Source: Litorimonas taeanensis | GTDB lineage: Bacteria; Pseudomonadota; Alphaproteobacteria; Caulobacterales; Maricaulaceae | Length of the DNA stretch: 64,000 nucleotides | Reading direction: 5' to 3' | Assembly (NCBI RefSeq): GCF_003634015.1 | Contig: NZ_RBII01000002.1 | Span: 709,597-773,596, forward strand | Shown here: one piece after another, positions 1 through 6,053 of the stretch | Layout: each line of letters starts with the position of its first letter | Numbering within the stretch: the stretch's first letter is position 1 | The notes under the pieces: generated by a model | Seen by the model: the letters and a program-made list of their open reading frames with translations, nothing else | The model's database searches: none | What the model was told of the DNA's origin: nothing | Position numbers and translations under genes: made by a program

Positions 1-1970
1 TCAACAGGAACAGAGGGCCCGGCTTGTTTAAGTGTCTTGTTACGCTCATCGGTCAAAGCTTTCACCTTGCCCCAATATTCGCCAGCCACAACGATTTGTC
101 CTCGTTTTAACGTACCACGCTTAACGAGAAGCGTTGATACAGGGCCGCGGCCTTTTTCGATCTTAGATTCAATAACCAAACCATCAGCATTGCGCGTTGG
201 GTTGGCTTTTAAATCCATCAACTCTGCTTGCAACGTAATCGCTTCTGCCAGTTCTGCTAAACCTGTCTTTTTCAAGGCGGAGACTTGAACAGCCTGTGTT
301 TCACCAGACATGCTTTCGGTGATAACGCTATGCTGTAAGAGGTCGGTTTCAACTTTCTGCGGATTCGCTTCATAGGCATCCATTTTGTTAATGGCGACAA
401 TAATTGGCTTATCTGCAGCTTGTGCATATTTAATCGATTCAATCGTTTGCGGCATAATGCCATCATCAGCAGCAACAACAAGGACGACAATATCTACGGC
501 TTCGGCGCCGCGTGTCCGCATTTCAGAGAAAGCCGCATGTCCTGGCGTATCCAATACTGTGATGGTTTCGCCTGATTTTAGTTTCAGCTGATACGCACCA
601 ATATGTTGTGTAATGCCGCCCGCTTCGCCAGAGGCAACATCTGTTGAACGTAAGGCATCCAAGAGCGAAGTTTTACCGTGGTCAACATGACCCATAACGG
701 CAATGACAGGGGCTCTAGGTTTGCGATCTTTTTCGTCTGATGGCGTGTCATCAATGATAAAGTTTTCTTCAACATCAGAGGCCGCCACACGTTTGACTGT
801 GTGACCAAAATCTTCAACGATGAGCTGCGCTGTATCAGCGTCTAGCATATCGTTAATATTCATCATCTGGCCTTGCTGCATCAGATATTTCACAACATCT
901 GCGCCGCGCTCTGCCATACGGTTGGCCAAATCGCCGACCGAGATAACTTCGGGAATGGTGACTTCACGTTGCACCTTCTCACGAGAGGCATTTCCGCCGC
1001 GTTGACGCTGCTTTTCGCGTTCACGGGCACGTTTCATAGAGGCAAGTGAGCGTTGGCGTTCGTCATCACCAGACAAAGCTGAAACGATGGTTAGCTTGCC
1101 GCGGCGGCGTTTTTGTTCGCCCTTGGAACGGGTGGGCGGTGGCATATTGCCCCGCTTTTTCTTGACGCGTCCGCCGGCCTTTTCAAGCTCGGTCATATCC
1201 TCAGAGGATGTTTCATTTCGATTCAAAGGTGAGCCGACTGGCTTGCGAGCATTGCGCGCTTCGGCTTCTTTCTTTTGACGTTCTTCTTCTTCTTTTTCAA
1301 GACGGCGTAGTTCAGCTTCTTCTTCTTCGCGCTTTTTACGCTCCAAAGCTTCACGCTCATCTTTCATACGCTGTTGGCGTTCCGCTTCTTCAGCACGTCT
1401 ACGAGCTTGGCGTTCTGCCTGTTCAGCTTGCGCTTTTTGTAGGGCCTCTTGGCGTTTCTTATATTCAGCAACGGATAAACCGAGCGCGCGGGCCGCTTCT
1501 TTTACATCAATGGGTTTTGGCGGCGGCGGGGCTAAAGCGGGTTTTAATTTTGGCGCTGGAGCTTTAGGCTTTGGCGCAGCTTCAACAGCTTTGGGCTTTT
1601 CAGGGGCCTTTGTTTCTGTTTTCGCTTCAACCTTAGGGGCTGGCTCTGCTTTAGGGACAGGTGTTTCCGGCACTTCAACCTTATTAGAAGAAACACGAGG
1701 AATAGGCGCTGGCCGTGCAATATTTGGTACGACAGGTTTTGTTTCGCCTGTGCTGGCGTTCTCTTGCCCCTTATTGATCGGCGCAATATTAGGCTTAATT
1801 TTTGGTGTGGCTTTGGCCGCACCCGCCTGTTTCGTACCAGGACGGACGAGGATTTTCTTTTTCTTTTCGACAACAACGGCAGAACTTCGTCCGCGTGCTG
1901 GTCGCGCTCCGCCTTTGTTCAATGTCAAAGGTCGGCGGGCTGGTTTTTTATCAGATGTATCGTTCATCAT
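1..1970 (-). CDS. infB: Translation initiation factor IF-2 (5' part, runs off the left edge)
   Basis: IF-2 is the GTPase that brings initiator tRNA to the 30S subunit and promotes 50S joining. About 656 codons are present; the C-terminal domains lie beyond the edge. The first ~420 residues are a long Lys/Ala/Glu/Pro-rich extension with a charged, probably coiled-coil stretch, typical of alphaproteobacterial IF-2. The G domain follows, with G1 GHVDHGKT near residue 427, the DTPGH switch and NKMD near 528, then the start of domain II. Two adjacent ATGs (1970 and 1967) are possible starts; neither has a strong ribosome-binding site. It is the last visible gene of rimP-nusA-ylxR-infB, 135 bases after ylxR. 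Identity is certain; only the exact start is open. Confidence 0.97.
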
Positions 1971-2105: not shown

Positions 2106-2828
2106 TTATGACTCTTTCTTTTTCACTTCATGGTCGTAATCGTCCCAATCCGTAGGGATAAGAGGTACAAACCCCGAAAGCCTCTCGGCTTCGAGTCTTA
2201 AGCGTTTGCAGAGCTTACCCCGTTTAATGCCTGCGTGGACCATTTTATCACGCCCAAAACAGTCCCCTAATTCATAGGCTGTGAAACATCCAATCGTTGT
2301 GGGATCAGATAGTTCCAATTCTCTTGCAATAGCGCGAGACAAGGTACGGATTTTGCCGCGCCCATCAGCTGCGCCGTCGCGGGCTTCAACACGAAGGCCT
2401 AAGACGCCTTCACGTGCCATCCCAATGACTTGGTCATAGCCCATCGCAATATTAGCGGATTTTTTAGCCATTGATAGGAGCCCCAATACGGAGCGCTTCA
2501 AACCCGCCTCAACTTGACCCTCTAGGTCATCAGGCATTTTGACCTGAGATTTAAAACCTCTTGCGAAGGCTTTAGATTTAATCGCTTTTTGTAATAATTC
2601 AAGATTAGCACTAACCCAAACGCCGCGCCCTGGTAACTTTCCGGCAATGTCAGGCACGACCATATTGTCCGGCCCTTTGACGAACCGAACCATATCTTTC
2701 GGGTCCCGAACTTCGCCCAAGGCTACGCATCGGCGTTCTTTTGATTTATGACCCCGCCTGTCGGGGCCATATTCAAGTTCTTCTTCCGAAAGGTTTTCGT
2801 TATTCGCAATGTCGGTGGGCGTTCTCAT
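2106..2828 (-). CDS. ylxR: YlxR-family RNA-binding protein fused to an L7Ae-like domain
   Basis: The N-terminal DUF448/YlxR domain (about residues 25-105) has the family signatures RRCV at 32-35 and GRGVWV at 67-72. The remainder (about 110-225) resembles the L7Ae/L30e/YlxQ fold, a fusion common in alphaproteobacteria where Gram-positives have two separate genes. The family is thought to bind RNA; YlxR has been linked to RNase P and to transcription control in Gram-positives, but its role here is inferred. It lies between nusA (20 bases upstream) and infB, its conserved place, so it is probably co-transcribed with the initiation and elongation machinery. At 240 residues it has the usual length of the fused form. 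Confidence 0.9.
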   Translation of the reverse strand: MRTPTDIANNENLSEEELEYGPDRRGHKSKERRCVALGEVRDPKDMVRFVKGPDNMVVPDIAGKLPGRGVWVSANLELLQKAIKSKAFARGFKSQVKMPDDLEGQVEAGLKRSVLGLLSMAKKSANIAMGYDQVIGMAREGVLGLRVEARDGAADGRGKIRTLSRAIARELELSDPTTIGCFTAYELGDCFGRDKMVHAGIKRGKLCKRLRLEAERLSGFVPLIPTDWDDYDHEVKKKES

Positions 2829-2848: not shown

Positions 2849-4495
2849 TTACGCGCCCTCAAAAAGAGTTTCGGCAGTGATGACAGGGTTGCCATCCTCA
2901 TCAAGTTCAGCTTCTTCCTCTTCTTCGAGTGCTGAAGCTTCAATCCAGCCAGCTTTCACGCGGGCTTGCATGATAAGGTTTGTTGCCTCTTCATTTGTAA
3001 GGCCCATATGCTCAATCATACCATCTTCATGAATACGTTCACCGTCTTTATATTCAGTGTAACCGTTCAAATCATCAGGCACGAGTCCGGCGACATCTTC
3101 GACCGTTTTGATCTCATTTTCACCAAAGATAACAGCCATAGGCAGAGTGACACCTTCGATTTCCAGAACATCATCCTCAACACCTGTTTTGATACGGGCT
3201 TGATTTTGCTCTTCTGCGATACGGTCAAGATATTCACGCGCACGCGCCTGAAGTTCCTCAGCCGTTTCATCATCAAACCCATCAATAGACGTTAGGTCAT
3301 CCAGCGCCACATAGCCGACTTCTTCCATAGTTTCGAAGCCTTCAGAAACGAGAAGCTGCGCCACCATTTCGTCGACATCCAAGCCTTCCATGAAGAGACT
3401 AGAGCGCTCTGCAAACTCTTTCTGACGACGCTCTGACTCTTGAGCTTCTGTTAAGATGTCCAAAGCCCAGCCTGAAAGCTGTGATGCGAGACGCACATTC
3501 TGCCCACGGCGGCCAATGGCCAGTGATAATTGGTCTTCTGGAACCACAACTTCGATACGCTCATTGGCTTCATCAATGACGACTTTAGTGACTTCAGCGG
3601 GTTGCAAGGCATTGACGATGAAGGCCCCCATATCTTCTGTGTAAGGAATGATATCAATACGCTCACCTTGAAGCTCATTAACAACAGCCTGAACACGTGA
3701 ACCGCGCATACCCACACAAGCCCCAACAGGGTCGATAGAACTATCAGATGAGTAAACTGCGATTTTGGCACGAGAGCCTGGATCACGTGCAACTGAGACG
3801 ATTTGGATAACGCCTTCATAGACTTCTGGAACTTCTTGGGCAAAGAGTTGAGCCATAAATTGTGGGTGCGCGCGAGATAGGAAGATTTGTGATCCACGCG
3901 GTTCTTCGCGAACATCCATAATATATGCGCGAATCCGATCGCCTGACTTTACATTTTCTCGGGGCAACGCTTGGTCTCGGCGAATAACGCCTTCGGCGCG
4001 GCCTAGATCCACAATAATGTGACCATATTCAACACGTTTGACGATACCATTGATGATTTCGCCAATACGATCTTTAAATTCAAGATATTGACGGGCCCGC
4101 TCGGCATCGCGGATTTTACCCATGATGATTTGCTTGGACATTTGGGCTTGTACACGGCCAAACTCAAGGGGCGGCAGGTCTGTTGTGATAAGGTCACCCG
4201 CCACTGCGTCAGGATTATCCATTTTTGCTGTTGAAAGGGCGACTTCTGTTGTTTCGTTTTCAAGCGCTTCGTCTTCGACAACCGTGATGACCCGGCGGAG
4301 ACTTTGTTCGCCTGTTACGGGGTCGAGCTTTGCTCGAATATCAAGCTCAGAACCATAACGCAGACGAGCGGCTTTTTGGATGGCCTCTTCAATGGCTTCC
4401 AAAACGATAGCTTGATCGATGGATTTTTCGTCAGCAACAGCTTTTGCAATCATCAAAAGCTCAAGTTTATTAGCAGCAATTCCGTTCGTGGACAT
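2849..4495 (-). CDS. nusA: Transcription termination/antitermination factor NusA
   Basis: NusA binds RNA polymerase and nascent RNA and modulates pausing, termination and rRNA antitermination. The order is complete: an N-terminal polymerase-binding domain (1-140), an S1 domain (about 145-210), two KH domains with GxxG loops GMRG at 262-265 and GRRG at 328-331, then helix-hairpin-helix/acidic repeats to about residue 520 and a very acidic tail. The start ATG overlaps the rimP TAA by one base (TAATG), which suggests translational coupling. A length of 548 residues matches alphaproteobacterial NusA. Confidence 0.98.
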   Translation of the reverse strand: MSTNGIAANKLELLMIAKAVADEKSIDQAIVLEAIEEAIQKAARLRYGSELDIRAKLDPVTGEQSLRRVITVVEDEALENETTEVALSTAKMDNPDAVAGDLITTDLPPLEFGRVQAQMSKQIIMGKIRDAERARQYLEFKDRIGEIINGIVKRVEYGHIIVDLGRAEGVIRRDQALPRENVKSGDRIRAYIMDVREEPRGSQIFLSRAHPQFMAQLFAQEVPEVYEGVIQIVSVARDPGSRAKIAVYSSDSSIDPVGACVGMRGSRVQAVVNELQGERIDIIPYTEDMGAFIVNALQPAEVTKVVIDEANERIEVVVPEDQLSLAIGRRGQNVRLASQLSGWALDILTEAQESERRQKEFAERSSLFMEGLDVDEMVAQLLVSEGFETMEEVGYVALDDLTSIDGFDDETAEELQARAREYLDRIAEEQNQARIKTGVEDDVLEIEGVTLPMAVIFGENEIKTVEDVAGLVPDDLNGYTEYKDGERIHEDGMIEHMGLTNEEATNLIMQARVKAGWIEASALEEEEEAELDEDGNPVITAETLFEGA

Positions 4496-5049
4496 TATGT
4501 GTCTCCATTTTCGGGTGTGGTATTCGTGTTGAGTTTAGCGGCGTCTTTTGCTTTTTGCCCGGCTTCAATAAGGGCGTCAGTAATTTGTAATTTCGCTTCG
4601 GAGATCCAGTCAAAGGGAATAGAGGCCGTACTGTCCGGTTCGTTTTCTAAATTGATGTCAACGTCATTGCCATCAACACCTGCCAATACGCCGCGAAAGC
4701 GTTTGCGGCCTTCGACTAATCGGTCGAGTTCAATTTTGGCGTGATAGCCTTCATAGGTTTCAAAGTCTTTGAGGTCCGTGAGCGGGCGATCAAGACCTGG
4801 CGAGCTGACCTCAAGAATATAGGCATCTGAAATTGGGTCTTCGACTTCCATTAAAGCTGACAATTCACGCGATAAAGCTTCGCAATTCTCGACAGCCATT
4901 AAACCATCGCTTTTGCGTTCGGCCATGATTTGCACGGTTTTACGCTTGCCCGCCATCACGCGCACACGGACAATATTTAGACCCAAATCTTCAGCAATGG
5001 GTTCGGCAAGGGCGAGTACGCGCTCATCTGTATGTGTTTTTGTTTTCAT
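4495..5049 (-). CDS. rimP: Ribosome maturation factor RimP
   Basis: RimP assists maturation of the 30S subunit. The family motif LEVSSPGLDRPL lies at residues 79-90 and the N-terminal domain matches in order and length; the C-terminal SH3-like domain runs to about residue 155, followed by a polar tail. It is the first gene of rimP-nusA-ylxR-infB, with its stop overlapping the nusA start. The 270 bases upstream hold a candidate promoter and a strong intrinsic terminator, so expression of the whole operon may be set there. The ATG at 5049 is the first plausible start. Confidence 0.95.
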   Translation of the reverse strand: MKTKTHTDERVLALAEPIAEDLGLNIVRVRVMAGKRKTVQIMAERKSDGLMAVENCEALSRELSALMEVEDPISDAYILEVSSPGLDRPLTDLKDFETYEGYHAKIELDRLVEGRKRFRGVLAGVDGNDVDINLENEPDSTASIPFDWISEAKLQITDALIEAGQKAKDAAKLNTNTTPENGDT

Positions 5050-5147: not shown

Positions 5148-5172
5148 AAAAAAAACGGCCCCGCTGGGGCCG
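5148..5172 (-). terminator. Strong intrinsic terminator upstream of rimP
   Basis: On the minus strand a perfect 7-bp all-GC stem (CGGCCCC/GGGGCCG, 3-base loop, 5156-5172) is followed by eight consecutive T (5155-5148). It sits about 150 bases after the stop of the phosphatase gene and 99 bases before the rimP start. It either ends the phosphatase transcript or acts as an attenuator or short-RNA terminator for the promoter at 5218-5246. Confidence 0.85.
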
Positions 5173-5217
5173 CCTGTTCCGCATCCTGTGCGGTTGGCGT
5201 TTTTTATCGTTAAGCCG

Positions 5218-5246
5218 TATTTAGAGTAAGACACCAAATTACGCAA
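5218..5246 (-). promoter_or_regulatory. Candidate sigma-70 type promoter for the rimP operon or a short leader RNA
   Basis: On the minus strand TTGCGT (5246-5241) and TAAATA (5223-5218) are separated by exactly 17 bases. Transcription would begin near 5211 and meet the terminator at 5172-5148 after roughly 60 bases. No comparably good promoter was seen between the terminator and rimP. The call rests on motif spacing only. Confidence 0.4.
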
Positions 5247-5267
5247 GCCTTTATAATGACCATTGTG

Positions 5268-5299
5268 CAGACGTTATAGATATACAAAATAAACGTCTG
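5268..5299. other. Inverted repeat just upstream of the candidate rimP promoter
   Basis: CAGACGTT (5268-5275) and AACGTCTG (5292-5299) are perfect 8-bp inverted arms around a 16-base AT-rich spacer. They lie between the phosphatase stop and the candidate -35 box. This could be an operator or a phosphatase transcript-end hairpin; it has no T-run. Confidence 0.35.
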
Positions 5300-5321: not shown

Positions 5322-6053
5322 TTAGCGCCCAGGTCCCGGAACCGCCGCGCAAGGCTCGCCATACATAGCGCCTTGGTCAATGCAAAAGAATTTCCAACCT
5401 TTTACAGTCTCGGGTTTATCACCAATATTGTCGCCTATAAAAGCTATAACCTCGACATTTGGGTAACCTTGAGCCGCCAATATTTCTGGTACAAGGTTAA
5501 ACCGACTGGTTTTATCAGACCGTCCATTTGGTGAAGCCTTAGTCAATAAAACACGGAAATCTTCACTGCGCCTAAGGCCCAATGCGGCGAGGTTTTCTTC
5601 AGTCGCCAATTGTTCTGTGTCTCGGCGGTTTGTTACGAAGGCTACATGGCCGCCTAATTGATTTACAAAAGCAATAAACTCGGCCGCGCCCGGAACAAGG
5701 CTTGCCTGTTTTTTCTGAGTCCACTCATACCAGCTTACACTTGTGTAGCCTAAGCCGGCTTTGTCACGTGCCACTTGATACGCCACATTGTTCATTACGG
5801 TTTCATCAAGATCTAATATGACTGCCCAGCTTAGTGCGGAGTTTTTTTCGCTCTGAATTTTCACATACTCGGAGGCTTCCTCATAAACATCAAGAGCCTC
5901 TTGGCGCCAGTCAGGCGCGTGGGCGACCCATTCTGTGCTGGGCTTAAGAGATGATGTTTCATGGGTAGAAGTCGTCGTACACGCCGCCAGTCCTGTTGAA
6001 AGGCTAAATAAAAGGGATAAGGTTACTATATGCAAGGCAGGGCGTCGTTTCAT
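5322..6053 (-). CDS. Acid phosphatase lipoprotein of the e(P4)/class B HAD group
   Basis: The product begins with a lipoprotein signal ending in LAAC (Cys25), so it should be anchored in the envelope. The HAD elements are present: DLDET with the nucleophile Asp81, Thr141 of motif II in FVTNRRDTE, a Lys near 171-181, and the acidic motif IV IGDN at 206-209. This arrangement matches the HAD IIIB/e(P4) acid phosphatases, which dephosphorylate nucleotides and similar phosphomonoesters outside the cytoplasm; in Haemophilus e(P4) serves NAD uptake. The substrate here is unknown. GGAG sits 7 bases before the ATG. It separates trmB from rimP, which are often closer in related genomes, so it is probably an added gene. 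Confidence 0.85.
   Translation of the reverse strand: MKRRPALHIVTLSLLFSLSTGLAACTTTSTHETSSLKPSTEWVAHAPDWRQEALDVYEEASEYVKIQSEKNSALSWAVILDLDETVMNNVAYQVARDKAGLGYTSVSWYEWTQKKQASLVPGAAEFIAFVNQLGGHVAFVTNRRDTEQLATEENLAALGLRRSEDFRVLLTKASPNGRSDKTSRFNLVPEILAAQGYPNVEVIAFIGDNIGDKPETVKGWKFFCIDQGAMYGEPCAAVPGPGR

Follow-up and report, generated by a model that had tools for sequence, protein, structure and literature searches.

A probable attenuator ahead of the rimP-nusA-ylxR-infB operon of Litorimonas taeanensis and its order-specific form

In the window, i.e., the whole 64,000-nucleotide stretch analyzed here, the sequence preceding rimP probably encodes a leader attenuator that acts in cis on the rimP-nusA-ylxR-infB operon. 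Its form is particular to the bacterial order and would rely on a switch between an upstream P1/P2 structure and the terminator. Attenuation of rimP leaders had already been predicted (Naville and Gautheret, 2010); this order differs in the absence of the published signature and in the presence of a hairpin structure that overlaps the terminator.

The host genome is alphaproteobacterial and 2.78 Mb in size, and the minus strand of the window carries, in order, trmB, an acid phosphatase gene, a gap of 272 nt, rimP, nusA and ylxR; that infB follows ylxR we take from the first-pass annotation and from the usual gene order. The features referred to below, all on the minus strand, are as follows.

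5322..6053, minus strand: HAD acid phosphatase gene, upstream and outside of the leader (Pfam Acid_phosphat_B)
5241..5246, minus strand: predicted -35 box of the operon promoter, TTGCGT, from sequence and alignment with the CTTGCC/CTGACA boxes of relatives
5218..5223, minus strand: predicted -10 box, TAAATA (TATATN in relatives), from sequence and the conserved 17-nt spacing
5148..5211, minus strand: predicted leader RNA of about 64 nt, its start (about 5211) placed from the -10 box
5196..5199, minus strand: CGCC, 5' strand of the antiterminator-like outer stem P1, pairing with 5174-5171 (minimum free energy fold of the truncated RNA; own-versus-foreign arm test)
5179..5193, minus strand: P2 hairpin, CCGCA (5193-5189), CAGGA, TGCGG (5183-5179) (covariation in relatives; folding z-scores)
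5171..5174, minus strand: GGCG, the competing segment common to P1 and to the base of the terminator 5' arm
5148..5175, minus strand: intrinsic terminator, with the perfect stem AGGCGGCCCC-AGC-GGGGCCGTTT at 5175-5153 and a U tract of 8 at 5155-5148
4495..5049, minus strand: rimP, first gene of the operon, starting at 5049 (Pfam RimP_N and RimP C-terminal SH3)
2849..4495, minus strand: nusA (Pfam NusA_N, S1, KH_5 and KH_2)
2106..2828, minus strand: ylxR (DUF448; Pfam YlxR)

For the comparative analyses, the order set comprised 60 genomes, with a RimP match in 56 and none in 4, and the upstream regions of all 56 were read. The class set of other Alphaproteobacteria, which leaves out two genomes of the window's own order, derived from 144 genomes searched, 127 of them with a match, from which 80 were fetched by score. 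The named set consisted of the best 80 of 356 loci, partly from the same genomes as the order set, and among these best 80 the nearest named relatives of the window were Hellea, Litorimonas, Algimonas and Robiginitomaculum. Hellea is placed in Maricaulales by NCBI; we designate the group Caulobacterales in what we take to be the GTDB sense, with named members reaching Brevundimonas, Caulobacter and Phenylobacterium.

The first-pass annotation had described a perfect GC terminator with eight T, and this element is present at 5175-5148, where it ranks first of 22 in 12 kb (shuffled sequences gave 15.5 +/- 4.2 terminators). A GC-rich hairpin followed by a T run was detected by script ahead of rimP in 55 of the 56 order relatives, the lone miss (L020) having an imperfect terminator that was added by hand. 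A terminator also precedes rimP in 76 of the 80 named loci, with three of the remaining four displaying an imperfect hairpin like that of L020 and one (L203) none, and in 64 of the 80 regions fetched from elsewhere in the class. Control runs of the finder, at settings slightly narrower than those of the 55/56 count, returned 5/56 (order) and 9/80 (class) on the reverse strand, and 3/56 and 7/80, respectively, further upstream. The T run lies 98 nt from the RimP start in the window and 12-126 nt (median 34) in the 56 relatives; in 22 of these it ends 30 nt or less before rimP, which leaves no room for a promoter, and therefore transcription of rimP must cross the terminator. Just after the U tract, many leaders (among L002-L011, L017 and L025) carry ATTGCCT or ATGCCT, which in some of them pairs with a nearby AGGC.

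The promoter that had been proposed (TTGCGT-17-TAAATA) is likewise present in the window, with boxes that are poor relative to the E. coli consensus (6/12 by hand count) and that were not listed by a promoter scan at 9/12 of that consensus. These boxes alone would not stand out, and it is the relatives that settle the predicted promoter: TTGCC/CTGACA-17-CTATAT occurs at the equivalent position in 36 of 56, against 3.1 expected from shuffles, a favourable count given that the pattern was drawn up only after the sequences were viewed. The spacer is nearly always 17 nt, the pattern is located 51-71 nt ahead of the terminator stem, and the 20 misses include leaders with boxes off by one base. The minimum fold of the full predicted leader of the window has -24.9 kcal/mol (z -2.60). 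Between the phosphatase stop and the promoter, an inverted repeat, CAGACGTTTAT...ATAACGTCTG, was observed at 5265-5295, which may serve as an operator or mark a weak 3' end of the phosphatase transcript.

A small hairpin (CCGCA/TGCGG) had also been noted ahead of the terminator, together with the suggestion that the gap be compared in related genomes for conserved stem pairs; this comparison shows that the hairpin, P2, is real, as its pairs covary with compensatory changes. In alignments built with MAFFT without structure for subgroups A3 (24 sequences) and A4 (17), both sides changed in 5 of 10 pairs of helix 1 of A3 and in 4 of 5 pairs of the P2 stem of A4, in which 94.1% of cells are paired; the covariation score was matched by 0 of 500 shuffles in each run, and slid controls scored far lower. 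The stem varies in sequence and the loop mostly retains CAGGA or GGAT, with a near-invariant GGAT loop above the varying stem in A3 and GGA in the terminal loop of 46 of 106 leaders. In family f2 the hairpin is weak (mean z -0.59). Two genomes of the window's own genus (L010 and L012) keep the terminator and the -10 box and display no clear P2, and are natural tests of the role of this hairpin. Judged by eye, two alternative stems, CGTTAG/CTAACG or CGGCGTC..GGCGCCG, are possible in the hairpin region of L026, L029 and L187-L219 (Brevundimonas and kin).

P2 is enclosed by the outer stem P1, which uses the 4-6 nt at the start of the terminator 5' arm, an overlap that was not seen in the first-pass annotation. 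By eye, the letters of P1 and of the terminator arm change together between groups, namely CGCC/GGCG in the window group, CACC/GGTG in L015, GTTCG/CGAGC in the Maricaulis relatives, CGCT/AGCG in L024, L030, L194 and L044, CTTTGA/TCAAAG in L038, and GTCGA/TCGGC in L052. As nucleotides of the arm were added to the upstream element, its folding z went from -0.91 (0 nt) to -2.26 (6 nt) and -1.38 (12 nt), being best at about 6. A genome's own 6-nt arm outfolded the arms of foreign genomes in 47 of 56 cases (p 1.4e-7), in 36 of 50 further named loci (p 8e-5), and in 22 of 30 when one genome per genus was used (p 2e-4), p-values that ignore shared ancestry, an effect of kinship that the one-per-genus version reduces and does not remove. 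No effect was obtained with a decoy segment (11/56), and no own-arm advantage was found in 64 other Alphaproteobacteria (30/64).

In the window, RNA cut before the terminator 3' arm folds as P1/P2 with -13.1 kcal/mol, and imposing all 4 P1 pairs on the full leader raises its energy by only 1.7 kcal/mol over the minimum. The minimum fold itself keeps three P1 pairs together with the upper terminator; as modelled, the exclusion between P1/P2 and the terminator may be partial. In a duplex test of the P2 flanks, 42 of 105 leaders ranked in the top 10% relative to shuffles; another 4 of the 109 had been dropped for an undetected hairpin or a too short flank, and the finder mislocates some hairpins (L028). 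In a truncated-RNA test, 36 of 109 leaders reached the top 10%. Pairing between upstream sequence and the entire terminator arm did not exceed that of shuffles (f1 0.39 vs. 0.48) and was rejected, only the base of the arm being above chance, and the P1 stem was only 61.8% paired in the MAFFT alignment A4. The comparisons point to an upstream structure that has bases in common with the terminator and is conserved beyond chance, with weaker or negative outcomes in the whole-arm and A4 tests. Pairing of a 5' A-tract with the U tract occurs in the window fold, but was not general in the relatives and was dropped.

The rimP-leader described by Naville and Gautheret (2010; PMC2965389) resembles the present element in having an intrinsic terminator upstream of rimP-nusA-infB, proposed as a NusA-linked attenuator; there, the terminator is placed 4-130 nt from the gene, a range that covers the distances found here, and the general motif is a GGGc...gCCC terminator without a visible antiterminator. 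The terminator stem of the window, GGCGGCCCC/GGGGCCG, departs from this signature. Outside the order, 49 of 64 terminators carry GTGGGC, the class version of the signature, versus 0 of 56 inside; for the loose form GGGC..GCCC, the counts are 51 of 64 and 11 of 56. Unlike the published rimP-leader, that of the order combines absence of GTGGGC with a conserved overlapping P1/P2 hairpin; the order has lost a signature presumed to be recognized by a protein, and possesses a hairpin that other Alphaproteobacteria, as a set, do not show. We tentatively propose that in this order the widespread rimP-leader may have exchanged its signature for a switch based on structure. It would be a minimal riboregulator of about 64 nt, with P1/P2 and the terminator in competition over 4-6 nt, and NusA or another ribosome-linked factor would read it through the P2 loop.

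Under the attenuator reading, RNA polymerase would start at about 5211 and make some 35 nt that, according to in silico folding, would form P2 inside P1; with P1 occupying the beginning (4-6 nt) of the terminator 5' arm, P1/P2 and the complete terminator would be mutually exclusive, as the comparative tests suggest. Transcription would stop after about 64 nt where the terminator wins, and would read through into rimP where P1/P2 holds, and this balance would set the supply of RimP, NusA and IF2. The likeliest controlling factor would be NusA itself: by analogy with B. subtilis and E. coli, abundant NusA would favour the terminator. NusA-linked attenuation has been proposed for rimP leaders (Naville and Gautheret, 2010; PMC2965389); NusA of B. 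subtilis is autoregulated via NusA-stimulated termination in its leader, according to a review (PMC12288461); and in E. coli, a reduction in NusA termination is accompanied by higher transcript levels of the operon (PMC6511841). Against a NusA trigger counts the strength of the window terminator, unlike the suboptimal hairpins and U tracts that NusA is said to aid (PMC8060035). Given an attenuator, control by NusA is in our view a possible assignment, somewhat short of an even chance.

It is rather unlikely that the same switch responds instead to a ribosome-assembly signal, an RNA chaperone acting in the cold or a protein reading the GGA-containing P2 loop, as might be suggested by the GGA loops and by the near-invariant GGAT of A3. 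However, GGA is not universal, and the best known GGA-loop binder, CsrA, is excluded as the controlling factor, being absent from 60 of 60 genomes in a search whose positive control was found in 3 of 14. Cold induction of the E. coli operon (PMC6511841) also fits such a trigger. A sensorless attenuator with constant readthrough, in which P1/P2 would do no more than protect the terminator arm or adjust its efficiency, would agree with a strong terminator of conserved position and with a minimum fold that retains the upper terminator and most of P1 together; we hold it unlikely, since an overlap between P1 and the base of the terminator that is conserved, and a P2 that covaries, look like more than a fixed stop.

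The remaining readings had been raised in the first-pass annotation next to that of an operon promoter with an attenuator. That the gap only holds the end of the phosphatase mRNA would agree with a phosphatase gene whose end, at 5322, is separated from the terminator stem by about 147 nt. Of the 56 relatives, however, only 1 has a phosphatase upstream, and in 21 of 56 the opposite strand carries the longest upstream ORF (a rough count), yet the terminator is kept. As the upstream genes vary and the terminator persists, it does not serve the phosphatase gene, and this reading is highly improbable. The attenuator reading is favoured by the same arrangement, conserved ahead of rimP despite changing upstream genes, and is further borne out by the 22 relatives with no space for another promoter.

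A short RNA gene, whose 64-nt transcript would act in trans with expression of rimP being incidental, might be suspected from the compact and stable fold and from the report of rimP-leader RNA among ProQ-associated, attenuator-derived RNAs (PMC5391140). Covariance models of the leader, searched genome-wide, argue otherwise: with R1 (36 genomes), 10 of 11 matches at E<1e-7 were directly ahead of rimP, the other being a second copy 2.4 kb upstream, and with R2 (60 genomes) all 11 matches at E<1e-5 were ahead of rimP. Weaker matches were scattered, and of two that were fetched, one was near rimP (G013) and one in G018. Furthermore, the sequence drifts while the pairing is retained, and an Rfam search of the window gave no match, including to RF01770 at gathering score or up to E 10. 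Apart from the local second copy, these results disfavour the short RNA gene, which we deem very unlikely. The sRNA Atu_C8 (RF02502) was rejected as a candidate, with 16 bits against a gathering score of 50 (E 2), and its one match above cut-off (L057) had no RimP within about 1.5 kb.

Second rimP-leader copies were observed 1.6-2.4 kb upstream of the first, at 2622-2682 (minus strand) in L230 and about 1837-1885 (minus strand) in L231. The second copy of G009 is complete with terminator (51.7 bits), and that of G013 retains promoter and P2 and has lost the terminator. The two copies flank an ORF of about 475 aa that looks secreted, an arrangement resembling a gene insertion accompanied by duplication of the leader.

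Among known systems, trp-type attenuators of B. subtilis have an antiterminator and a terminator that overlap by a few nt, a likeness to the present leader, for which no binding protein is known. The gammaproteobacterial rimP leader (RF01770) belongs to the same operon and is described as a termination/antitermination structure in several Gammaproteobacteria (PMC2965389); it has a tandem second terminator upstream, in contrast to the single terminator of the window. The leader of the B. subtilis nusA operon shares the promoter, leader terminator and operon with nusA (PMC12288461); its dependence on NusA has been demonstrated, whereas that of the present leader is a proposal, and it measures about 180 nt (PMC2965389), compared with about 64 nt plus 98 nt to rimP in the window. 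In the literature library searched, no study of the rimP leader of Caulobacter turned up.

Products of this operon include a transcription termination factor, a 30S assembly factor and IF2. Through the proposed switch ahead of it, which is compact, covaries clearly and occurs in bacteria that can be cultured (Brevundimonas, Caulobacter, Maricaulis and Litorimonas), the old proposal of NusA autoregulation becomes testable in Alphaproteobacteria, and our results suggest that an attenuator can hold its place while its recognition code changes.
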